Assembly (NCBI GenBank): GCA_030145625.1 | Contig: JAQYVF010000047.1 | Coordinates: forward strand, 1-37,698 | Direction of reading: 5' to 3' | DNA from: Desulfocapsa sp. | GTDB lineage: Bacteria; Desulfobacterota; Desulfobulbia; Desulfobulbales; Desulfocapsaceae | DNA: 37,698 nucleotides | In this document: one piece after another, positions 18,791 to 34,331 of the stretch | Layout: each line of letters starts with the position of its first letter | Position numbering within the stretch: position 1 is the first letter of the stretch | Position numbers and translations under genes: made by a program | The notes under the pieces: model-generated | What the model was told of the DNA's origin: nothing | Seen by the model: only the letters and a program-made list of their open reading frames with translations | Databases searched by the model: none

Positions 18791-20158
18791 ATGTATACTA
18801 TCTTAGCGTATGCAATTCCAGAAGAAAGTCGCCATATCATGCAGACTGCCCTTGATGAAAAGACCAGCATTAAATTTTGTTCGGATCTGGATGGTTTTTT
18901 TGGAGAAATGAAGAGACATGAATATGATACCCTCTTTCTTTTTATGGAGGATGTTCATTCAGATATGGAGCTTCTGGAAAAGATCTATCAGCGTAGCCCA
19001 CATACTCCGATAATTATTGTTAGTCAGGAGGAGAAGACGGAACTGGTTGTTGAGGCACTGAAAAATGGGGCCAGTGACTATCTGGTTCATCCGGTTTCCG
19101 CAGCCCGTTTTGAGGTGGCAACTCGACGAGCCAGGGAAAACAGGGCCTTGCGTAATGAGATTGCCTATCTGCGCCACAAGCAGGATATTGTCTATCATTT
19201 TGATGATGTCATTGCCTTTAGCCCGAATATGCAGCAGGTCCTGAAAAGTCTGGAGAAATTTGCCAAAACCGATTCCACTATTCTCATCACCGGCGCGACC
19301 GGGAGCGGGAAAAGTTTTCTTTCGGGAACGGTACATTACAACAGTCCGAGAAAACAGAAGCCTTTTATCAAGATTAACTGCGCCAACATTCCGGAAGATC
19401 TCCTTGAATCAGAACTTTTTGGACATGAGAAAGGGGCATTTACCGGAGCAGAGAAGTTGCGTATAGGTCGTTTTGAACAGGCCAGTGGCGGGACACTTTT
19501 TCTAGATGAGATTGGTGAAATCAGCCTTGGACTGCAGACCAAGCTGCTTCGGGTTCTGGAAGAAAAGTCTTTTGAGCGAGTGGGTGGGAATAAGACCATT
19601 TATGCCGATGTCAGAGTGATTGCCGCCACCAATAAAGATCTGTTAGAGCAGATTAACAAAGGGAAATTCCGGGAAGATCTCTACTACCGGATCAATGTCC
19701 TTCCCATTCGTTTACCGGATCTGCGGGAACGGCGTCAATGTTTACTCCCGCTTGCTCAATATTTTCTGAAAAAATATTCAAAATCACTGGCTAGTGATGT
19801 GCGGGGATTCACTGATCGAGCCCTGCAGCAGATTCGGGAGTACAGCTGGCCGGGAAATATCAGGCAGCTGGCAAATACCATAGAACGTGCTGTTATTCTT
19901 GAAGATGATGAGTTAGTTGATACCCATAACCTTTCATTGCCCATGGAGAGGGGGGGGAGAAGTGTTTCCGAGATTGTTAAGGAGACTGCAAAGGGATCAC
20001 TGGTCGATCAAGAGAAGGAGCTGATTCTCAAGGCCCTGGAGGAGAGCCTCTGGGTACAGAAAAATGCTGCTGAAAAGCTTGGGATTAGTCCCAGGTCTTT
20101 AAATTATAAGGTGAAAAAGTTCGGGATTACTCATCCTCACTGGCGCAAGCATCGATAA
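18791..20158 (+). CDS. sigma-54-dependent activator with a degenerate receiver domain
   Basis: The 455-residue protein has a receiver-like domain (1-120), an AAA+ sigma-54 interaction domain (about 138-365: Walker A GATGSGKS at 168-175, GAFTGA at 215-220, Walker B LFLDE at 236-240, SWPGNIRQL at 352-360) and a Fis-type helix-turn-helix (422-445, [20 protein letters not shown]). The receiver lacks the usual residues: the N-terminal acidic pair is replaced (ILAYAIPEE), the phosphoacceptor position after YDTLFL is Phe51, and the conserved Lys is His100 (DYLVHP). It therefore probably does not respond to ordinary phosphorylation. No kinase gene is adjacent. AAAGGAG precedes the ATG. It likely activates sigma-54 promoters elsewhere. 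Confidence 0.95.
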
Positions 20159-23253: not shown

Positions 23254-24897
23254 CTAAAATTCTCGATTTGCTATTCCACTGTTCATAAGTTGTTGTCGAC
23301 ATACAGCAGCAAAATCCTCCGGATAGTGACCATTGATAAACCGAAGTTGCGCCTCGCTGAATGCCCCTGGTGATTCCGGAAGTCTGGGAAGAAAGGCATA
23401 GAGCAGGTGCTGTCCTATTACACCTGTTTTTCCCAGTCGTTTGGGGTATTCGATGGAGGTGACCATCCTTGCCCCTAAGGCGGCAAGAGATTTCTGAGCC
23501 AGAAAAATTCCATAATTGAGCGATGTCCTGACTGCAGTGTCTGCTTCCAGGATATTTCCCACAACCTCACCATTCTGATTCTGAAGAGCCATAAGCTGCA
23601 GTTCCCATTGTGAAGTCTGAGCCTTGGGAACAAAGAGCATGGCATGTTCGTCTTCCCAGATGATCAGGCTGGATTCCAGGTCACTCCGACTATCCATACG
23701 GACATTGTTGCGGATACAGGCCAGATAATCCGTAAAGAAATCATTGCCTGTCTCATTTCGATAATCTTGGATTACCTCGGCAATCATGTCGCCGCAGCCA
23801 AATGCAGGCATGCTCCCACAGGCATTGAGCTGATCACCGGAAAAGGTGTCCACCTCCTGCGGCAGCATGGCATACTGCTGATGGATCTGCTGATGGGACG
23901 CATGCAGGCGGTATCCGGTGGGTGCATAGTCAAAGCCAAAATTCCATCCCCAGAGCGTGGCTGTGAAATCCAGTGCTTTGTCCTCTCCGATTTTTTCTAT
24001 GATTTTCCTGCGCACCCCTTCTAGTTCAGCAACAGAGAACATTCGCTGCTCCTCACCACACTGAAGTCCCAGGTGAGTGGCCAGGCGAACAAAAGTACGC
24101 TGATAGTAGAGATGACGTAATCCTTCCATATCGGTTTCTGACAAGCTGTCAATTGAGTAACGGATGGCATCATCGGCCATGTTGGCAGCATAATGACCTC
24201 CGGCAATATAGGAGTTGCGTCTCAGATATTCAAAGATATGTGTTTCATTGTCTTCACTATAGTCTCCAATTATTTCACTCCCCCCTTGTGCTCCTGGGCG
24301 CAAGACCATAACTTTCTTGTAACTTTCAGGCAGGGCCGGATTGTTGGCTACTGCCTCAAAGAGGGAATGATCGTTGATAAGAGCATGGCTACGCCCCCGG
24401 TCATCAAGGGTATAGACCAATCCGGTTGGGGAACCCTTTTCATCCTTTTCCAGCTGACAGGAAAGTTCAGCCAGTTTAACCAAGTCTTTGCTGTCTGTGG
24501 AACTGGTGGCCAGGGCCAGGAGCAGCGGTGCTGGAAGTTTATCCAGAAGGGTGGCAGGGATATGCTCTTCTGCAAGGATATTGCTTAGGGAGAGTGTCTG
24601 TCTCTGTGGCAAACTGATCCGCTGAGGGTTGGCAGCGCTGTTGTCGGCCCATTCCTTGTCGATAAAGGTCGTTCCTTTAAAGGGAAGGGGGTTGGGGATT
24701 TCAAAGATCCAGTCTGCCTCTTCAACCTGTATCGTGCCCTGTGGAAAATTTCTCTGATTAGTGTATGGCTTCCCGCTACGCAGGTGACCGAGGTTTTCTA
24801 TTCTTGCAGTGCTTCTCAGGTTTTGGACGCTATAGTTTGGTTTATGAATACCATAGATAAACTGTTGTTGCGGAGTAATGCAGGATCTTATACGCAT
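23254..24897 (-). CDS. unrecognised 547-residue protein
   Basis: I do not recognise this protein with confidence. It is soluble, without signal peptide or membrane segments. The middle third is helical and acidic (SIDSLSETDMEGLRHLYYQR). The C-terminal third alternates strands and helices and carries distinctive segments: HAMLFVPKAQTSQWELQLMA, LNYGIFLAQKSLAALGARMV, GQHLLYAFLPRLPESPGAFS and INGHYPEDFAAVCR. The VPKAQTSQWELQ stretch faintly recalls the HIT/GalT superfamily, but the histidine triad is absent, so I would not name it so. It is divergent from luxP (269 nt apart) and convergent with fliW. The size and clean frame leave little doubt that it is a gene. Confidence 0.85.
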   Translation of the reverse strand: MRIRSCITPQQQFIYGIHKPNYSVQNLRSTARIENLGHLRSGKPYTNQRNFPQGTIQVEEADWIFEIPNPLPFKGTTFIDKEWADNSAANPQRISLPQRQTLSLSNILAEEHIPATLLDKLPAPLLLALATSSTDSKDLVKLAELSCQLEKDEKGSPTGLVYTLDDRGRSHALINDHSLFEAVANNPALPESYKKVMVLRPGAQGGSEIIGDYSEDNETHIFEYLRRNSYIAGGHYAANMADDAIRYSIDSLSETDMEGLRHLYYQRTFVRLATHLGLQCGEEQRMFSVAELEGVRRKIIEKIGEDKALDFTATLWGWNFGFDYAPTGYRLHASHQQIHQQYAMLPQEVDTFSGDQLNACGSMPAFGCGDMIAEVIQDYRNETGNDFFTDYLACIRNNVRMDSRSDLESSLIIWEDEHAMLFVPKAQTSQWELQLMALQNQNGEVVGNILEADTAVRTSLNYGIFLAQKSLAALGARMVTSIEYPKRLGKTGVIGQHLLYAFLPRLPESPGAFSEAQLRFINGHYPEDFAAVCRQQLMNSGIANREF

Positions 24898-25166: not shown

Positions 25167-26345
25167 ATGAGGGAGAGAAGAGCTTTGCTCAACATAAAAC
25201 AATATTTAGGGATTTTATTCTGTTGTTTATTTGTCTGTCCCCTGCAGGGGGCTGCTGGTAGCAGAGAAAAACAGGCTGCTCAAGAGAGTCATCTGAAGGG
25301 GCAATATATAGCTGTTGAAGACTATTTTGCTCTTCACCCGGATGAGAAAAAAATCTCTATGAATTTCGGTAAGCTTGTCCAAGGTCCTCCACAAGCAATT
25401 CCTTCGACACTTCAGGGGCAAAAGGTTTCCGTCGCTATAGTCTATCCCGGTGAACAGGTTTCTGATTATTGGCGGCGCAGTTTACAGTCGTTTATCGGGC
25501 GTATGCAGGAACTTGCTATCGATTATGAAATCAGCGAATATTTTACCAAGGGTGGTGGGGTAGAGACTCGGATTCAGGAGAAACTCTTGAAGGAAGCCCT
25601 GGCAAAGAATCCGGATTATCTTGTGTTCACTCTGGATGTGAATAGACACAAGCGGTTGATTGAACGGATCTTGGCCAAAGGCAGACCTCGGCTGTTCCTG
25701 CAGAATATCACCACTCCTTTGGTAGCCTGGGAAGAAAATCAGCCATTTTATGTGGGATTTGATCATGTCATAGGGACTCGAATGCTTGCCGATTATTTTT
25801 TGAGAAAGTTCGGTTCGCAAGGGAGCTATGGCCTGCTTTACTACTCGCAGGGCTATGTCAGCAGGATGCGAGGGGACACCTTTCATGACTATATGCATCA
25901 GGGCAATGGTCCGCGACTGGCGGCCTCTTTTTATACTGATGGCAGCAGAGAAAATGCCAGAAAGGCTGTGGCCCGCAGTCTTGGCAACGTTCCGGATCTG
26001 CAATTCATTTATGCCTGTTCCACAGATGTTGCCCTGGGTGCTGTTGATGGATTGAAAGAGGCCGGGACAAGTACTCGCATTGCAGTAAACGGTTGGGGAG
26101 GCGGCAGTGCAGAGTTGGCTGCCCTGGCAAAGGGAGATCTTGATGTAACTGTAATGCGAATGAATGATGATAACGGAGTTGCCATGGCCGAGGCTATCCG
26201 TCTGGAGCTGCTTGGCCGTAAAAAAGATGTCCCTACCATTTTCAGTGGAGAATTTATTCTGGTTACAGGAGAGAATTCTCCAGAAGAGCTGAATGCTCTG
26301 AGGCATCGGGCCTTTCGTTATTCCGGGATTCATGAATCCAGGTAA
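25167..26345 (+). CDS. luxP: LuxP-like periplasmic autoinducer-2 binding protein
   Basis: The 392-residue protein has a signal peptide (hydrophobic core at about 13-28) and a two-lobed periplasmic-binding fold. It follows Vibrio LuxP closely: VAIVYPGEQVSDYW (90-102), YLVFTLDVNRHK, LQNITTP (178-184), YVGFDHVIGTR, YSQGYVSRMRGDTF, IYACSTDVALGAVDGL, NGWGGGSAEL, LDVTVMRMNDDNG and RAFRYS near the end. Equivalents of the residues that hold borated AI-2 in LuxP are present: Gln97, Ser99, Trp102, Asn180, Arg235, Ser285, Thr286, Asp287, Trp310 and Arg331. It would bind AI-2 in the periplasm and pass the state to the kinase encoded next, whose ATG overlaps its end. An AGAAGGG lies about 10 nt before the ATG. 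Neither luxS nor lsr genes are in the window. Confidence 0.92.
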   Translation: MRERRALLNIKQYLGILFCCLFVCPLQGAAGSREKQAAQESHLKGQYIAVEDYFALHPDEKKISMNFGKLVQGPPQAIPSTLQGQKVSVAIVYPGEQVSDYWRRSLQSFIGRMQELAIDYEISEYFTKGGGVETRIQEKLLKEALAKNPDYLVFTLDVNRHKRLIERILAKGRPRLFLQNITTPLVAWEENQPFYVGFDHVIGTRMLADYFLRKFGSQGSYGLLYYSQGYVSRMRGDTFHDYMHQGNGPRLAASFYTDGSRENARKAVARSLGNVPDLQFIYACSTDVALGAVDGLKEAGTSTRIAVNGWGGGSAELAALAKGDLDVTVMRMNDDNGVAMAEAIRLELLGRKKDVPTIFSGEFILVTGENSPEELNALRHRAFRYSGIHESR

Positions 26346-29300
26346 CAGAAATATGTTTAGAACTAATAAAAGATATTCATTTTTGACCTTTCTGGGCAGA
26401 TTCCTGTTCCCGCCTCTTCTTATCCTCCTCTCTGTACTACTTTTTTGGATTTATCATGTAAGTGAGAAGAATATCCGTAACCAGCAGAATTTGAGTATAG
26501 AGCTGAACAATAAGAATGCAGCAAGAGAGCTGGAGCGTGTGCAACACTATCTTCTAAGTGCGTTGCAAGAGACGGTACTGCTCCTAAATGAGGTAGTAAA
26601 TTCTCAAGAAGTCATTGCCGACGACACTATGATGAAAGTTTTGCAGAAAGGAGAGGATAATCAATTCGATTTTCTCCATTTTGTACCTTCAAGTGGAGAG
26701 TTGGAAGTGGCGGTGAGTGATTCTCCTTTTTTTGATTTCAGCGACTCTATTGATCAGTTCAGAGATGGGGCCGAATTTTTACTCAATTCCTGGCATATCA
26801 TAAATGTGGGTTTACCCGGCGATCAGCTCTGGATTATGGCTACCGGTAAAAGGATAATAGTGCGTGACACAGGTTTGGTGCTTGGAACCTTGGTGGGAGG
26901 TATTGTGATTAATGACAATCAAACTCTTGCCCGTGATATTTTGATGAATACCAATGCTCGGTATGCCGCCCTTGCAGTTGAACAGAATATCATTGCCGCA
27001 AATGTCCCCCTTACCCTGGAGACATTGAACGCTCTGGGAGGAAGCAGTAGCACTGTGAGTAGAGATATGTTGAAAGAAAAGGGCGAGCAACAGGCAGTGC
27101 TCATCAGTCGTTCTCGTTATCCCTTTGCAAACAACAATGATCTGAAAATTCTTCTGGTTTATGAGGACAGCCTCTACCCTGAAATTCGGAAAACTTTTCT
27201 CCACTCAGGGGGTACGGCACTGCTCTTTACTGTATTACTCTTTGTTGTTTTTGCACTTTTCTCGAGGAGACAGACAGAAAAAGCGATTGGTAATCTGCTC
27301 CATTATACTGAGACGGCGGCAACAAGACCTGGGGAAGTTATTTATAGCCCGGGACCACTCCTGGAATTCAACCGCATAGGAAAAGCGGTGGAAGAAATGA
27401 TCTGTTTGCTGAACACTGCTGCCGATGAGTTGAAAGAGAGTAAGGATCGATTGGAGCTTGTCATTGATGGAGCTGGATTGAGTACCTGGGATTGGAATGT
27501 TGAGACTGGAGAGATGAGATATAACGAGCGTCGGGCCGAGATGCTAGGCTTGAGTCCGGACGAGGTTGGACCCTATTTTACGAGCTGGAAAGAATGTCTT
27601 CATCCTGATGATAAGGATATGGTTTTGCAGCTTTTGACCAATCACTTAGATGGTAAAAGCCCTGTCTTTCAGAGTGAACATCGTTTGCAGAGTAAGTCGG
27701 GAAAATGGATTTGGGTGTTGGATGCCGGTAGGGTTTTCAAGCGGGATGCGGCGGGAAATCCTCTGCTTGCTGCAGGTATTAATCTGGACATCAGTCGTCA
27801 GAAAGAGGCGGAAAGAGCACTTTTAAAAGAAAGGGCCTTGTTGCTCTCTCTTATCAATTCCATACCTGATCTTATTTTTTATAAAGATCGGGAAAGTGTC
27901 TACCTTGGATGCAATAAGGCCTTTGAAAGTTTCACCGGGAAAACGGAACAGGAAATTATTGGCAAAAATGATTTTGACCTCTTTTCGAAAGAAGAGGCAG
28001 AGTTTTATCTGAAAAAAGACAGAGTTATGCTTTCTTCTGCAGTAGCTTGCCGCAATGAGGAACAAGTGACGTATCCTGATGGCCATCTGGTACTGCTTGA
28101 TACCATGAAGACGCCACTTGTTGGATCAGATAGGGATATAGTTGGACTTATCGGGGTTAGTCGGGATATCACCAGGCTGAAGGAGGTTGAGCAAAGGTTG
28201 GCGGAGGAGCGTGAGCGACTTGCTGTGACTTTGCGTTCCATTGGCGATGGAGTAATTACCACTGATACCGGGGGACGCATTGTTTTTCTCAATAAGGTGG
28301 CCGAAGAATTGACAGGGTGGACTGATGAAGAGGTGTCCGGGAAAAACTTTGTGGAAGTTTTCGATATTGTAAATGAAAAGTCAGGGCGAAAAAAGATTGA
28401 TCCGGTAAGCCAGGTAATGGCGGATGGGAAAATCTCAGGAGATAGCAGCAACACAGTACTTGTGAGCAGGGGGGGGACGAAAAGAATAATTGCAGAGAGC
28501 GCTGCTCCCATTAAAGATAGAGCGAATACTATTATTGGGGTGGTTATTGTATTTCGTGATGTAAGCAATGAAAGAAGAATGGAAGAAGAGCTACTTAAAA
28601 TTAGGAAAATTGAGTCTATAGGAGTACTAGCCGGCGGTATTGCCCATGATTTTAATAATATCCTGACAGCGGTATTGGGTAATATCGAACTTTCCCGCTC
28701 CCGTGTCGCAAGAGTCGATGAGAAGGCCGAGCACTTTCTTGACGAAGCTGCTAAGGCAACCAAAAGAGCGGTTAAACTGACCCAGCAGCTATTGACCTTT
28801 GCCAAGGGTGGAGAACCGATTCGGGAATCAACTGATTTGCGGATACTGATCCAGGATACTGCTGATTTTGTTACGCATGGCAGTCAGGTTATCTGTGAGT
28901 ATGATTTTGCCGAAGAGTTGTGGAGAGTGGATGGTGACTCCGGTCAGATCAGTCAAGTCATTCAGAATATAGTATTAAATGCAAAATATGCCATGGAGGA
29001 AGGCGGTATCATCCATATACGCTGTGAAAATGTTGAAAAATTGGATGAAATCTCTCAGACCAGTACGCATAAAGGTGGTTTTGTTAAAATAGTAATTGCT
29101 GATAGTGGTAAAGGAATTCCCGAGGAGATGATAGATAAGATATTTGATCCTTATTTTACTACCAAGCAAACAGGGAATGGACTCGGACTTGCGATTTCCC
29201 ATTCCATTATTGTCAAACACCGGGGTGTGATAACTGTTCATTCTCGTCTTGGTGAGGGAACAAGGTTTGTAATTTTTCTTCCTGCTATCTTGGGTGGCGA

Positions 29301-29721
29301 TAAAGATGGGGACGGAGAAAAAGGAGGTGAGCGATCAGTGGTCAAATCTGCCAGAATCCTGTTGATGGATGATGAACAGGTGGTGCTCGATATTGTTGAA
29401 GCGCAATTAAAATCACTTGGGCATAATGTTGTTCAAGCGACCGAAGGCAGGCAGGCTGTGGAAATCTATGAGCAGCTTCAGGCTGAAGGTACTCCTGTGG
29501 ATATGGTGATTGTGGATTTGACTGTGCCTGCAGGTATGGGCGGACGGGAAACAGCTGGACAACTCTTGGAATTGAATCCCGAGGCAAAAATTGTTGTGGC
29601 CAGTGGTTATTCCAATGATCCAATTATGGCCAATTACGAGGACTATGGTTTTAAGGGGGCGGTGTCTAAACCTTTTGGACTTGCCGAGTTAAGTCATGTT
29701 CTTCATCAGATTCTGGGGTGA
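26332..29721 (+). CDS. luxQ: LuxQ-like hybrid sensor histidine kinase
   Basis: The 1129-residue protein has TM1 (about 20-43), a periplasmic domain (44-290) similar to LuxQ (NSWHIINVG, VLGTLVGGIVINDNQTLARD, AANVPLTLETL), TM2 (293-312), a HAMP-like linker, three PAS domains (about 372-490, 500-612, 626-745), HisKA with VLAGGIAHDFNNILT (His772), HATPase (NAKYAM, DSGKGIP, FTTKQTGNGLGLAI) and a C-terminal receiver (Asp-Asp 1013-1014, phosphoacceptor Asp1062, Lys1113). Vibrio LuxQ is shorter, about 860 residues, with fewer PAS modules. The start overlaps luxP by 14 nt; an alternative ATG at 26353 lies just after the luxP stop. No luxU or luxO homologue is adjacent, so the next phosphorelay partner is unknown. 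Confidence 0.9.
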   Translation: MNPGNRNMFRTNKRYSFLTFLGRFLFPPLLILLSVLLFWIYHVSEKNIRNQQNLSIELNNKNAARELERVQHYLLSALQETVLLLNEVVNSQEVIADDTMMKVLQKGEDNQFDFLHFVPSSGELEVAVSDSPFFDFSDSIDQFRDGAEFLLNSWHIINVGLPGDQLWIMATGKRIIVRDTGLVLGTLVGGIVINDNQTLARDILMNTNARYAALAVEQNIIAANVPLTLETLNALGGSSSTVSRDMLKEKGEQQAVLISRSRYPFANNNDLKILLVYEDSLYPEIRKTFLHSGGTALLFTVLLFVVFALFSRRQTEKAIGNLLHYTETAATRPGEVIYSPGPLLEFNRIGKAVEEMICLLNTAADELKESKDRLELVIDGAGLSTWDWNVETGEMRYNERRAEMLGLSPDEVGPYFTSWKECLHPDDKDMVLQLLTNHLDGKSPVFQSEHRLQSKSGKWIWVLDAGRVFKRDAAGNPLLAAGINLDISRQKEAERALLKERALLLSLINSIPDLIFYKDRESVYLGCNKAFESFTGKTEQEIIGKNDFDLFSKEEAEFYLKKDRVMLSSAVACRNEEQVTYPDGHLVLLDTMKTPLVGSDRDIVGLIGVSRDITRLKEVEQRLAEERERLAVTLRSIGDGVITTDTGGRIVFLNKVAEELTGWTDEEVSGKNFVEVFDIVNEKSGRKKIDPVSQVMADGKISGDSSNTVLVSRGGTKRIIAESAAPIKDRANTIIGVVIVFRDVSNERRMEEELLKIRKIESIGVLAGGIAHDFNNILTAVLGNIELSRSRVARVDEKAEHFLDEAAKATKRAVKLTQQLLTFAKGGEPIRESTDLRILIQDTADFVTHGSQVICEYDFAEELWRVDGDSGQISQVIQNIVLNAKYAMEEGGIIHIRCENVEKLDEISQTSTHKGGFVKIVIADSGKGIPEEMIDKIFDPYFTTKQTGNGLGLAISHSIIVKHRGVITVHSRLGEGTRFVIFLPAILGGDKDGDGEKGGERSVVKSARILLMDDEQVVLDIVEAQLKSLGHNVVQATEGRQAVEIYEQLQAEGTPVDMVIVDLTVPAGMGGRETAGQLLELNPEAKIVVASGYSNDPIMANYEDYGFKGAVSKPFGLAELSHVLHQILG

Positions 29722-32700
29722 CGGCTTTATCTTGGACAGGGCCATAGCCACCACCTCCCGGTGTTTTGATACAGATGCTATCCCCTTTGTTCAGGACGAT
29801 ACTGTTTTTCCCTCCAATATCGGTCTGTTGTCCGTCTCTGATAACACTATTTTTTCCACAGTGCCCATTTTCGCCACCGGCAAGACCATTGGGAGACAGC
29901 TTTCGCCGTTCGGAGAGGATGGACATCTGCAGTGGCGCCAGGGCTTCGATATGTCGGATAAGGCCGTCACCTCCACGGTATTGACCATTGCCTCCAGAGC
30001 CTTTTCGCAGAGAAAATTCTCTGAGTAACACCGGGTAGCGTCTTTCCAAAATCTCTGGGTCGGTAATGCGGGTATTGGTCATATGAGTGTGTACCCCGGA
30101 TTGTCCGGACCAGCCCGGACCGGCTCCGGCACCGCCGCCGATGGTCTCGTAGTAGCCGAAATTTTCATTACCAAAGGTCAGGTTATTGGTGCAGCCCTGA
30201 GAGTCGGCAGCAGCAGTAAAGGCCTTGAAAATGACATCGGTGATTCGTTGAGAGGTGAGCACATTCCCTCCAACCACTGCAGCGTCTTCAGCAGGATTGA
30301 GTAGAGATCCTTTTTCTACGAGGACGGAGACCGGATTCAGGCAACCCTGGTTGAGAGGGATTTCTTCTCCTATAAGGCAGCGCAGACAGTAAAGAATAGC
30401 AGAGTGGACAACGGCTGGAGGGCAGTTGAGGTTCCCGGCAAGCTGTTTGCCTGATCCTGTAAAATCAAAGATTGCGTTGCCGGTATCGGGGGCAATGGTG
30501 ATGCGGAGTCGGATGGGAGTGTTGTCATCAAGAAAATCTTCCCCCTGCAGTTCAAGTGTTCCCTCTCTATTCGTATTTCGACAGAGTTCTTTGAGCATAG
30601 TCCGCACTGCACGTTCTGCGTTGTCCTGGATGTGGCCCATGTAGGCCTGCACCACTTGCAGGCCGTATTTTTTCATCATTTCTTCCAAGAGTCGAACGCC
30701 ATTTTGATTGGCGGCAATCTGGGCCTTGAGGTCGGAGAGATTGTCTGCTGGATGGCGGGCCGGGGCAATGGGAGGAGTGTGATCTGCATCTGCGAATTCG
30801 GTGAGGAACTGCAGTACCTCTTCTTCTTGAAAGAGGCCGTCTTTCACGATCTTCAGTGTCCTGATGGCCGCCCCTTCTTCAATCAGTGAGGTGGAAAAGG
30901 GAGGCATGGATCCGGGGCTGATTCCTCCGATATCAGCATGATGGCCTCTGCTGGCCACGAAGAAAACAACCTTGTTATTCTGCCATACCGGAGTGATCAC
31001 CGTGATGTCAGGAAGATGGGAGCCACCTGCAGCCGGATGATTGGAGGCCAGAACCTCGCCTGGCAGCAGGGTTTCCCGGTGGAGAGTAATCTGTGTTTTG
31101 ACAGCCTCTCCCATTGCACCAAGATGAACAGGAATATGAGGGGCATTGGCGATCAGATCACCTTTGGCATCAAAGACAGCACAGGAAAAATCCAGTCGTT
31201 CCTTAATGTTTGTGGAAATGGCACTTTTTTGCAGCGTTCTCCCCATCTGTTCGGCAATGGACATGAACAGATTACTGAAGATGGAGAGCTGTACCGGATC
31301 CACGCTTGTAGAGAGCTGTTTGTGTTTCCCCTTGCCGAGTTCGATAATGATGTCGCCGTATTGGGTACGTTGGACACGGTTTTGTGGTTCTACAAGAATG
31401 GTGGAACCATCCTGAATGATGATGGCTGGTCCGGTGAGTGGTTTTTCCGGAGGGATTTCTTCCAGCAGATAGAGAGGAGTGGAAAGCAGGCCTTCAAGAA
31501 AGTAACAGCTTATGTACCGAAGAGGGATAGCCGTGTCGTTGTTGCAGGTGATAAGTGGGCGGGGCAAGGATGATTCCCTACCTGTTAATCTGACTCGGAT
31601 ATTGTCTACCAGGATATCACGATCAGAGAGAAGGAAGCCATATTCCTGCAGGTATTGCTCGCAAAAAATGCTGGCAGGATCGTCTCCGTTTTCCATGGCA
31701 ATCATCATGGCCGTATCTGTTCCCTGGAAGCGAAGGTTCAGGTAGCGGGTAGTGAGGGGAGAATGACCATGGGGACACTGCTTGTGAAATTCATCAAGGG
31801 CATTGTGTTCCAGTCCATCGAGCCTTGCCAGTAAGCGGGGTAGGGATGTTTCGGTTAGGATCTCGGCTGCTGCTTCCTGGCGGTCTACCACCGTCTCTGC
31901 CAGGGATATGCCGAGAGCTGAAAGAATACCGGCATGATGATGAATAAAAACCGTATTAATACCGAGTGTTGCAGCAAGAGCGCAGGCATGTTGCCCTCCT
32001 GCTCCTCCAAAACAGGAAAGAACATGTTCCTTGATGTCATATCCTCGCATTACCGAAATCTCGCGGATAGGTCGGATCATGGTTTCATTGGCGACTTCCA
32101 GAAATCCCAGAGCGACCTCTTCTGGGGACTTGGCAGCTAAGCCGATTTTTGCTGAATCTTTGTTGATCTGCTCAGTGAGTTGGTGAAAGGCCTGGGTGAC
32201 ACCTTTGAGGTCCAGGGCTTGATTTTCGTTGGGGCCAAAGATATGAGGGAAAAAATCGGGCTGAAGCCTTCCAAGAAAGAGATTGGCATCGGTGACTGCC
32301 AGGTATCCCTGTTTGCGATAACAGATTGGACCGGGATGCGCTCCTGCTGATTCGGGTCCTACCTGCAGCATCCCATTTCTATAAAAGAGACGGGATCCTC
32401 CTCCGGCAGCAACCGTTTTGATGTGCATTTGCGGTGCCTGTATCCTGACTCCTGCGGTTTTTGTCTCCTGTACCAGTTCGTAGCTGCCGTTATATCGTGA
32501 GATATCTGTAGACGTTCCTCCCATATCAAAGCCGATTACCGGCCTCTGGTTGGTTTCCGGGTACGCGGTGAGAGCGCAGCCTACCACACCTCCTGCCGGG
32601 CCGGAGAGGATAGCATTAGACCCCTTGAAGCGATCAGCAGCAGTCAGACCACCGTCAGATTGCATGAAGAGCAGGGGGCATTTTTGCAGTTTGTCGATAA

Positions 32701-33469
32701 AACCGGACTGGAAGGAGTCGAGATAACGGCGGATATGGGGGGTGAGGTAGGCATCTACCAGGCAGGTATCACCCCGGGCCACGATCTTGACCTGAGGCAT
32801 GACCTGGTGTGAGAGTGAAATTTGGCTGAATCCTATTTCTTGGGCAAGTTCACCGATTAAGAGTTCATGCTGGTACACAGAATAGCCATGCATACAGACA
32901 ACAGCTACACTGCGGATACCTGCATTATAAATTTTTTGCAGTTCCTCCCTGATGCGTTGTGGGTCAGGTTTTTTAAGAATATGAAAAGCTTCACTGCTTT
33001 TCCCTATAACTGTATCAGCTCCTGAAGTTTTCTCTCCGGGTTGTAGGGGGCGGATTCGATCATCTACTTCCAGAACCGTCTTGTAGAGAAGGTCAGGCTT
33101 GACTATTTGCAGGTCAAAGAGATTTGGCCTGGTTTGATCACCAATGGCCAGCAGGTCGCCAAAGCCTCTGGTGATAATGAGAGCAGTATCAGCACCTGTT
33201 CGTTCGAGCAGAGCGTTGGTGGCCACGGTGGTTCCCATGCGAATCCATGCTATTTGGTCGGTGGCAAGAGGAGCAGTGGGAGGAAGGGAGATTCCGCGTA
33301 CTTTTTCCAGGATTCGCCTGATCCCTTCTCGTGGGGCATCACTGTAATTGGCTGGATCTTCAGAAAGAAGCTTTTCTGTGTAGACTTTCCCGGATTCAGG
33401 GACCTCTGCATACACATCAGTAAAGGTTCCACCCCGGTCAATGGAGAAACGAATCTCTGCAGGACGCAT
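29666..33469 (-). CDS. 5-oxoprolinase/hydantoinase-type fused HyuA-HyuB enzyme
   Basis: From the ATG at 33469 ([20 protein letters not shown]) the product is 1267 residues. The HyuA half (about 1-700) has two phosphate-binding signatures, DRGGTFTD and [14 protein letters not shown], as in actin-like ATPases. The HyuB half (from about 720) has [40 protein letters not shown] and [20 protein letters not shown]. This fused form is typical of ATP-dependent 5-oxoprolinase, which opens 5-oxoproline to glutamate, but hydantoin hydrolysis cannot be excluded. The gene is last in the upp-uraA-lysE-rsmI cluster, its ATG one base after the rsmI stop. Its last 56 bases overlap the end of convergent luxQ. 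An open extension upstream to 33562 overlaps rsmI and is not used. Confidence 0.94.
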   Translation of the reverse strand: [1267 protein letters not shown]

Positions 33470-33470
33470 G

Positions 33471-34331
33471 TCAGTCCTTTTTTTTCTGGTAGACCGCAAG
33501 GGCCTCCTGATAGACCTGAGAACGGGAGAGGCCGAGGTCACTGGCCAGCTTACGACTGACATCTTTTAAAGACATGGAGGTGTTGTCGCGATACCAGGCG
33601 AGGAGTTCCAGGAGGTTTTCGCCTTCGGCCTCCTGGCTTCCACCCGGTTCGATAACAAGGACAAATTCGCCCCGATTTTTATCGCCGGAGGCAAGTTCCA
33701 GGAGTGTGCTGATACTCCCTGCCTGCAGATCTTCATAGGATTTGGTCAGCTCTCTGCCCCAGAATGCCTGACGATCTCCCATGATCTGGAGAATGTCAGA
33801 GAGCAATGACTGGATGCGGCGGGGAGATTCGTAAAAGACAATGGGCCAAGCTGTATCGATGAGGGAGGTGAGCAACGTCCGTCTTTTTGAGCTTTTTGAA
33901 GGAGGAAAACCTAAGAACAAAAAAGAGGGGTGCGAAAGACCGGAAGCAGAGAGGGCAGTGGTAAGGGCAGACGCTCCTGGCAGAGGAACAACGACTATTT
34001 CAGCCCTTCGTGCCTCTGTTACCAGTACTGCTCCTGGATCAGATATTCCCGGGGTGCCGGCATCGCTGACGAGAGCGATGGATTCTCCGGCAAGGAGTCG
34101 TTGTACAAGCTGTTGCGAGCGTTGGACCTCCTTTTCACGGTAGTAGCTGATGAGAGGAGTTTGAATATCGAAATGAGTGAGAAGTTTTCGAGTATGGCGG
34201 GTATCTTCGGCAGCAATCAGGTCCACTTCTGCAAGAATTCGAAGACAGCGTAACGTAATGTCTTCCAGGTTGCCGATGGGAGTTGCGGCGATATAAAGGG
34301 TACCAGGGGAGGGCTGTTTACTTTGCACCAT
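33471..34331 (-). CDS. rsmI: 16S rRNA (cytidine-1402 2'-O) methyltransferase
   Basis: The 286-residue protein is of the SAM-dependent tetrapyrrole methylase-like fold. The family segments are present: TLYIAATPIGNLEDITLRCL at the N-terminus, AAEDTRHTRKLL, ALVSDAGTPGISDPG and VPLPGASALTTALSASGL, FLGFPP, FYESPRRI and GRELTKSYED. RsmI methylates C1402 of 16S rRNA in the decoding centre together with RsmH. A C-terminal helical tail (SLKDVSRKLASDLGLSRSQV) is the usual small domain. It begins 8 nt after lysE and ends one base before the next gene. Confidence 0.96.
   Translation of the reverse strand: MVQSKQPSPGTLYIAATPIGNLEDITLRCLRILAEVDLIAAEDTRHTRKLLTHFDIQTPLISYYREKEVQRSQQLVQRLLAGESIALVSDAGTPGISDPGAVLVTEARRAEIVVVPLPGASALTTALSASGLSHPSFLFLGFPPSKSSKRRTLLTSLIDTAWPIVFYESPRRIQSLLSDILQIMGDRQAFWGRELTKSYEDLQAGSISTLLELASGDKNRGEFVLVIEPGGSQEAEGENLLELLAWYRDNTSMSLKDVSRKLASDLGLSRSQVYQEALAVYQKKKD

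Follow-up and report, generated by a model that had tools for sequence, protein, structure and literature searches.

Does a bacterium of the Desulfobacterota carry a LuxP/LuxQ-type receptor for autoinducer-2 (AI-2), and does it make that signal itself? The question is raised by two adjacent genes on a contig of 37,698 nucleotides (nt) from a Desulfocapsa sp. assembly (GCA_030145625.1, contig JAQYVF010000047.1), a stretch that we call the window. The luxP-like gene (25167..26345, + strand) encodes a homologue of the periplasmic AI-2-binding protein of 392 amino acids (aa), and the luxQ-like gene (26332..29721, + strand) encodes a hybrid sensor histidine kinase of 1129 aa. Our data support the assignment of this pair to the LuxP/LuxQ type rather than to the ribose/galactose-binding proteins, and we think it fairly probable that it is an AI-2 receptor in a Desulfocapsa-like genome that does not make AI-2 itself.

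The luxP-like product matched the solved LuxP chains 4yp9, 1zhh, and 1jx6 at an E value of 1e-96 and 327 bits over query residues 47-386, while no chain other than LuxP scored above 35 bits, and LuxP was also its best structural match. The ten residues that we take to be the AI-2 contacts of LuxP (after the 1JX6 work) are all kept in the alignment, as a first-pass annotation of the window had claimed from the sequence. Window residues Q97, S99, and W102 align with LuxP Q77, S79, and W82 (motif QVSDYW, 25455..25472), N180 with N159 (LQNITTP, 25698..25718), R235 with R215 (SRMRGDT, 25860..25880), S285, T286, and D287 with S265, T266, and D267 (ACSTDV, 26013..26030), W310 with W289 (NGWGGG, 26088..26105), and R331 with R310 (VMRMND, 26151..26168), all on the + strand. 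Gln77 and Trp82 (PMC12921845) and Arg215 and Arg310 (PMC3794749) are named as LuxP contacts in print. From its sequence, AI-2 binding by the window protein is likely, and a furanosyl borate would be the ligand.

Could the protein instead be an ordinary sugar-binding protein of the ribose or galactose type that feeds a histidine kinase and is like LuxP by shared fold only? The fold class is the same, and the protein matches RbsB at 33 bits (cut-off 337) and the allose-binding protein at 27 bits (cut-off 335), both weak. We placed the protein in a quick IQ-TREE phylogeny of 87 rows and 368 columns, with support from the Shimodaira-Hasegawa-like approximate likelihood ratio test (SH-aLRT) only, six sugar-binding-protein rows as the outgroup, and rows L102, L104, and L108 left out. 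The 81 LuxP rows, drawn from Vibrio, Desulfobacterota, and others, split from the six sugar-binding rows at an SH-aLRT of 100, a placement that carries a program warning about long outgroup branches. The window protein lies on the LuxP side, where it pairs with a Desulfocapsa row (L020) at 99; the next nearest rows by path are mostly Desulfobacterota (L023 is titled "Proteobacteria bacterium"). The LuxP score, the tree split, and the structural match together rule against the sugar-binding explanation, which we regard as highly improbable, and agree with the first-pass view that this is not a mere ribose- or galactose-binding relative. A recent transfer from Vibrio was not supported: a 31-row clade with all Vibrionaceae, Aliagarivorans, and some Oceanospirillaceae excludes the window at 96.

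The partner kinase has a LuxQ-type tandem-Cache periplasmic domain (26494..27168; aa 55-279 by structure match). Pfam LuxQ-periplasm (PF09308) matched aa 80-225 at 31.5 bits, above the gathering cut-off of 25.7, and a phmmer search with the N-terminal 323 aa gave LuxQ (3c30) as the sole match (E value of 2.6e-5). The LuxQ tandem-Cache fold was the best structural match of the domain, and the two stretches that had been quoted as LuxQ-like, NSWHIINVG (aa 152) and VLGTLVGGIVINDNQ (aa 183), are both present. Behind this sensor follow PAS_3 (27517..27780; aa 396-483), PAS_4 (27856..28182; aa 509-617), and PAS (28216..28563; aa 629-744) domains, a HisKA domain with H772 in HDFNN (28627..28812; aa 766-827), a HATPase_c domain (28933..29286; aa 868-985), and a C-terminal receiver with D1062 in VIVDLTVP and the Lys in VSKPF (29356..29700; aa 1009-1123), all on the + strand. 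No HPt domain was matched within the protein by Pfam.

The pair is like the LuxP-LuxQ of Vibrio harveyi and Vibrio cholerae (1JX6, 1ZHH, 2HJ9, 3C30) in having a binding protein with the same ten contacts beside a hybrid kinase with the LuxQ-type sensor. Its HisKA-HATPase-receiver order without HPt is seen in Vibrio albus as well (L061). Unlike the Vibrio kinases, the window kinase has 1129 aa with three PAS domains, and it reached 125.9 bits against a cut-off of 1200 for the Vibrio LuxQ equivalog (NCBIfam NF041947), with the best stretch in the kinase part.

Can the host make AI-2? The 4.98-Mb host assembly is rated 100% complete, and the window is one of its contigs. A single luxS match was found, on another contig (C111:12178-12399, − strand; locus L012/L019). 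It is a C-terminal fragment of 74 codons covering Pfam positions 76-151 of 154, and its N-terminal metal-binding half is not recognisable; none of the three frames, read by eye across 916 nt around the fragment, showed HTLEH, presumably the LuxS metal site. Among 20 genomes of the genus, this fragment alone matched luxS. Pfs (5'-methylthioadenosine/S-adenosylhomocysteine nucleosidase, TIGR01704) had no match in the host genome, whereas the same model matched 12 of 14 control genomes. SahH is present in a single open frame of 447 aa, which covers Pfam positions 1-142 and 171-299 of 299. Because luxS is a fragment, Pfs is without a match, and SahH is present, the usual Pfs-LuxS route to AI-2 is not seen in this genome; other routes to AI-2-like compounds are possible. 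These data suggest that the Desulfocapsa host probably does not make AI-2 itself and, since no intact luxS was found, that it may listen to AI-2 from other species without producing it.

A luxS remnant in the same genome would also fit a receptor that is vestigial and heading to loss after the decay of luxS, and the patchy presence of LuxP points the same way. Among 36 genomes (the host's own included), eight matched LuxP: the full gene was found in four (the host, G013, G017, and G035), pieces at contig ends in two (G008 and G019), a broken gene in G002, and a generic ribose-type protein in G015, so that LuxP is intact or at a contig edge in 6 of 36. In G002, of the same genus, luxP lies in broken pieces (C72:27557-28115, − strand; loci L005, L009-L011, and L017) with the receiver tail of a LuxQ-type kinase nearby, which we read as a decaying luxPQ pair. 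Both window genes, however, run to full length, and their residues for the pocket, the phosphoacceptor, ATP binding, and the receiver are all in place; we consider it improbable that this receptor is a vestige.

If the pair is a working receptor, how would it signal? In Vibrio, ligand-free LuxP-LuxQ acts as a kinase and ligand-bound LuxP-LuxQ as a phosphatase, and phosphate passes from His to Asp within LuxQ, then to an HPt protein and a response regulator (PMC524169, PMC3794749). In our proposed mechanism, the exported LuxP homologue would close around borated AI-2 (S-THMF-borate) or a furanosyl borate much like it while sitting on the tandem-Cache domain of the LuxQ-like kinase, and would thereby shift the kinase between its kinase and phosphatase states. 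H772 would hand its phosphate to D1062 in the C-terminal receiver, from which it would reach a response regulator by way of a free-standing HPt protein.

Candidate relay partners were sought in the host genome. HPt domains gave 14 matches, three of them in free proteins of HPt size. The LuxU model (NF041948, cut-off 140) gave three matches genome-wide, at 27, 24.4, and 24.3 bits, the best of which falls in a larger protein; no match over the cut-off came from any of the 14 control genomes either. The three free HPt proteins (L131, L132, and L133) were not assigned as LuxU, as the model matches all three far below that cut-off, at 18.5 to 25.3 bits. LuxO was sought in the window, where the model was applied to one sigma-54 (NtrC-type) regulator alone (18791-20158), and it did not exceed the cut-off (307 bits versus 800). 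AtoC scores higher, and the gene sits between those for FapA and FliW; because of this position and its closeness to AtoC/NtrC types, the regulator was not assigned as LuxO. NF008187, which we take to be the LsrK model, had no match in the host genome, and no control genome passes its cut-off either. The first-pass description of a complete LuxP/LuxQ pair holds for the receptor alone; an intact luxS, a Pfs match, and a LuxU match that passes its cut-off were not found in the genome. With its kinase short of the cut-off for Vibrio LuxQ and no LuxU passing, the pair resembles LuxPQ at the receptor end yet stands, by these tests, outside the Vibrio circuit.

We then asked how widely this receptor occurs and what it is coupled to. 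A family scan (one genome per species) with G[EKN]Q[VA]SDYW and DYLV[FY]TLD as its seed patterns gave 93 relatives, of which 80 were kept, with hand-trimmed starts for L036, L085, and L086. By record titles, the 80 loci belong to Desulfobacterota, Pseudomonadota (gamma, alpha, and Magnetococcales), Spirochaetota, Campylobacterota, Cloacimonadota, and a few others. All ten contacts are kept in 61 of 81 family members, and Ala or Gly replaces S265 in 17 of 81; because the scan was seeded by motifs, the conservation of Q77, S79, and W82 is partly by selection. A downstream gene of at least 298 aa lies on the same strand at 79 of the 80 loci (at L059 the downstream open reading frame [ORF] has just 156 aa). 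Pfam LuxQ-periplasm (E value of 1e-3) was found in 70 of these 79 neighbours plus the window (40/40 in one batch, window included, and 31/40 in the other). By Pfam, the outputs of the 79 were HATPase_c (48), GGDEF plus EAL (27), and SpoIIE (1, L021), the other three being apparently cut or split genes (L020, L070, and L081). A looser script sorting of 80 neighbours gave 42 kinases, 27 GGDEF-EAL proteins, and 11 others; the count of 48 kinases is that of Pfam. Distances of LuxP and the LuxQ domain were correlated (r of 0.86 for 61 pairs), at a level that none of 2000 permutations reached. For the structure alignment (A4), 19 of the 79 neighbours, hand-picked and mostly near-duplicates, were left out.

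Several single loci deserve mention. In Desulfococcaceae bacterium HSG9, the LuxQ-type periplasmic domain is fused to a SpoIIE phosphatase beside luxP (L021, 8254-10488, + strand). The luxQ of Vibrio anguillarum DSM 21597 appears as two ORFs of 494 and 361 aa (L070, 8108-10667, + strand). Among 395 genomes of the phylum, 10 matched LuxP at an E value of 1e-3, with a full LuxP in two (the host and G420) and partial matches of at most 36.5 bits in the other eight; LuxQ-periplasm matched 18 of the 395, five over the cut-off. LuxQ-periplasm kinases occur without a genomic LuxP match in G010 and G070 (L129, 1544-5071, − strand; L130, 3747-6584, − strand). In G420, luxPQ is followed directly by genes for 128-aa and 832-aa proteins that both start receiver-like by eye (L134, 5774-12545, + strand) and are possible relay partners.

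Do the hosts of these receptors make AI-2? We traced 79 of the 80 loci (all but L087) to 76 distinct genomes, using a LuxS model that matches 5 of 14 control genomes. luxS was present in 39 of the 76: all 22 Vibrionaceae, 9 of 11 Oceanospirillaceae, all four Halomonas, both Aliagarivorans, Zobellella, and Arcobacter. It was not found in the other 37, namely all six genomes searched that are titled as Desulfobacterota taxa, all 18 Alphaproteobacteria searched, five Ectothiorhodospira, one spirochaete, one cloacimonad, one Magnetococcales, two Oceanospirillaceae bins, and the hosts of L023, L024, and L099. For many of these 37 the absence is weaker because they are metagenome bins; several of the alphaproteobacterial genomes bear isolate strain names. 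Both sets retain the pocket. Where the genome has luxS, all ten contacts occur at 34 of 41 loci, and where luxS was not found, at 25 of 38; the nine contacts other than S265 occur at 41 of 41 and 35 of 38, respectively.

The LuxQ-periplasm domain in 70 of 79 neighbours, their varied outputs, and the 37 of 76 genomes without a luxS match suggest that LuxP-LuxQ is an exchangeable receptor module, one that is frequently carried by apparent non-producers. Found in at least five phyla by record titles, LuxP and the LuxQ periplasmic domain may, with about even chances, constitute a general portable furanosyl-borate receptor that is plugged into a phosphorelay, c-di-GMP turnover, or a SpoIIE phosphatase, with many non-producers eavesdropping.

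In lineages that do not use LuxS, the receptor could instead have a physiological ligand other than AI-2, such as a xylulose-, 1-deoxyxylulose-, or MHF-like furanose with or without borate. Besides the 37 genomes without a luxS match, three points speak for this reading: L-xylosone, L-xylulose, and MHF all elicit a response from V. harveyi LuxP (PMC12921845), that protein has been solved with deoxyxylulose borate (PDB title of 4yr7), and S265 is replaced by Ala or Gly in part of the family. The Ala, however, is also found in Vibrio splendidus (L052), a luxS-bearing genome, and the ten contacts persist in the window and at most loci from genomes without a luxS match. AI-2 binding is reported for three LuxP proteins, from Proteobacteria and Deferribacterota, in a paper that counts 267 LuxP proteins (PMC12268683, 2025). 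We therefore consider another furanose unlikely, if still a serious candidate, and continue to favor AI-2.

Several points weigh against an AI-2 receptor in a nonproducing host. Ligand binding, signalling, and the LuxP-LuxQ contact are predictions from sequence and from the Vibrio precedent. Ala replaces S265 in the sister LuxP (L020), so the pocket is variable in the window's own lineage, and the non-LuxS ligands of V. harveyi LuxP, of xylulose and xylosone type (PMC12921845), bear on the window protein too. The sensor domain is 12-16% identical to solved LuxQ, and its Foldseek E value of 8e-9 for LuxQ is only narrowly better than the 4e-8 of the next, non-LuxQ entry. The correlation of LuxP and LuxQ distances also follows from shared host ancestry. 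No specific relay partner could be assigned, with the best LuxU-model match at 27 bits versus 140, and the host assembly, though rated complete, is in 229 contigs.

Both ORFs lie where the first-pass annotation put them, and the 14-nt overlap that it gave holds if the first ATG of the luxQ-like gene is used. An ATG at 26353, after AGGTAACAGAAAT, is a plausible alternative start that would replace the overlap by a 7-nt gap. The luxP-like product begins with a hydrophobic segment that by eye is a probable signal peptide. Upstream, a 547-aa ORF without a Pfam or NCBIfam match lies on the other strand (23254-24897, −); downstream, a convergent hydantoinase A/B fusion gene (29666-33562, − strand) overlaps the kinase gene by 56 nt at its 3' end. 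Given these flanks, the pair looks like a two-gene unit. Scans for promoters (11 versus 8.0 in shuffles; SD, 2.7) and terminators (3 versus 4.8; SD, 2.1) were not clearly above shuffled sequence.

How does the pair compare with known systems? Early surveys confined LuxP to Vibrio (2004, PMC524169) and the LuxPQ receptor to the Vibrionales (2008, PMC2561040). That LuxPQ is best known from this order, as the first-pass annotation said, is true, but LuxP outside Vibrio, including in Deltaproteobacteria, has been in print since 2008: homologues were described in Desulfuromonas acetoxidans (Dace_1280/1279, next to a PAS-domain regulator) and Desulfovibrio desulfuricans, with luxS reported absent in both, and sensing of AI-2 from other species was raised but called unproven, and less realistic for D. 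desulfuricans (PMC2561040). LuxP was later listed in three Desulfovibrio species, with partial LuxQ matches at 31% cover (PMC5187520, 2016; column read with PMC8586430). The window LuxP is deltaproteobacterial like those of D. acetoxidans and Desulfovibrio (Dde_3311; Desulfovibrio hydrothermalis). For their partners, the cited passages describe no LuxQ-type periplasmic domain (PMC2561040, PMC5187520), whereas Pfam and structure both back that of the window. For D. hydrothermalis, LuxS is listed too (PMC5187520), unlike the window; the window genome, without an intact luxS found and without LuxU above the cut-off, is in turn unlike Vibrio. The pairs with GGDEF-EAL proteins in Stappiaceae, Halomonas, Oceanospirillaceae, and Ectothiorhodospira share with the window LuxP and, where matched, the LuxQ-type sensor domain, but their output is c-di-GMP turnover and not a phosphorelay. 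Of 115 LuxQ-periplasm proteins tallied in 2016, 112 were histidine kinases and one was a c-di-GMP protein (PMC4822843, Table 1). Other AI-2 receptors differ: LsrB is an AI-2 sensor like LuxP but takes borate-free R-THMF, and in CahR-type dCache_1 receptors the Cache domain itself binds AI-2 (PMC12921845, PMC12268683). Our searches of the open-licence literature turned up neither LuxQ-type domains next to LuxP in a Desulfocapsa-like genome nor LuxP next to LuxQ-GGDEF-EAL proteins.

An intact LuxP/LuxQ-type module is thus present in a Desulfocapsa-like bacterium as well as in many other lineages, where its output may be a kinase, c-di-GMP turnover, or a phosphatase, and often where luxS was not found. 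If these receptors bind AI-2, they offer a direct test of whether bacteria evolve dedicated listening to a signal made by others; if AI-2 is not their ligand, the lineage would be a natural set for the determinants of LuxP ligand choice. Should the module prove to be portable, the window would represent a member of Desulfocapsa in which the receiver has been kept and the only luxS is a remnant.
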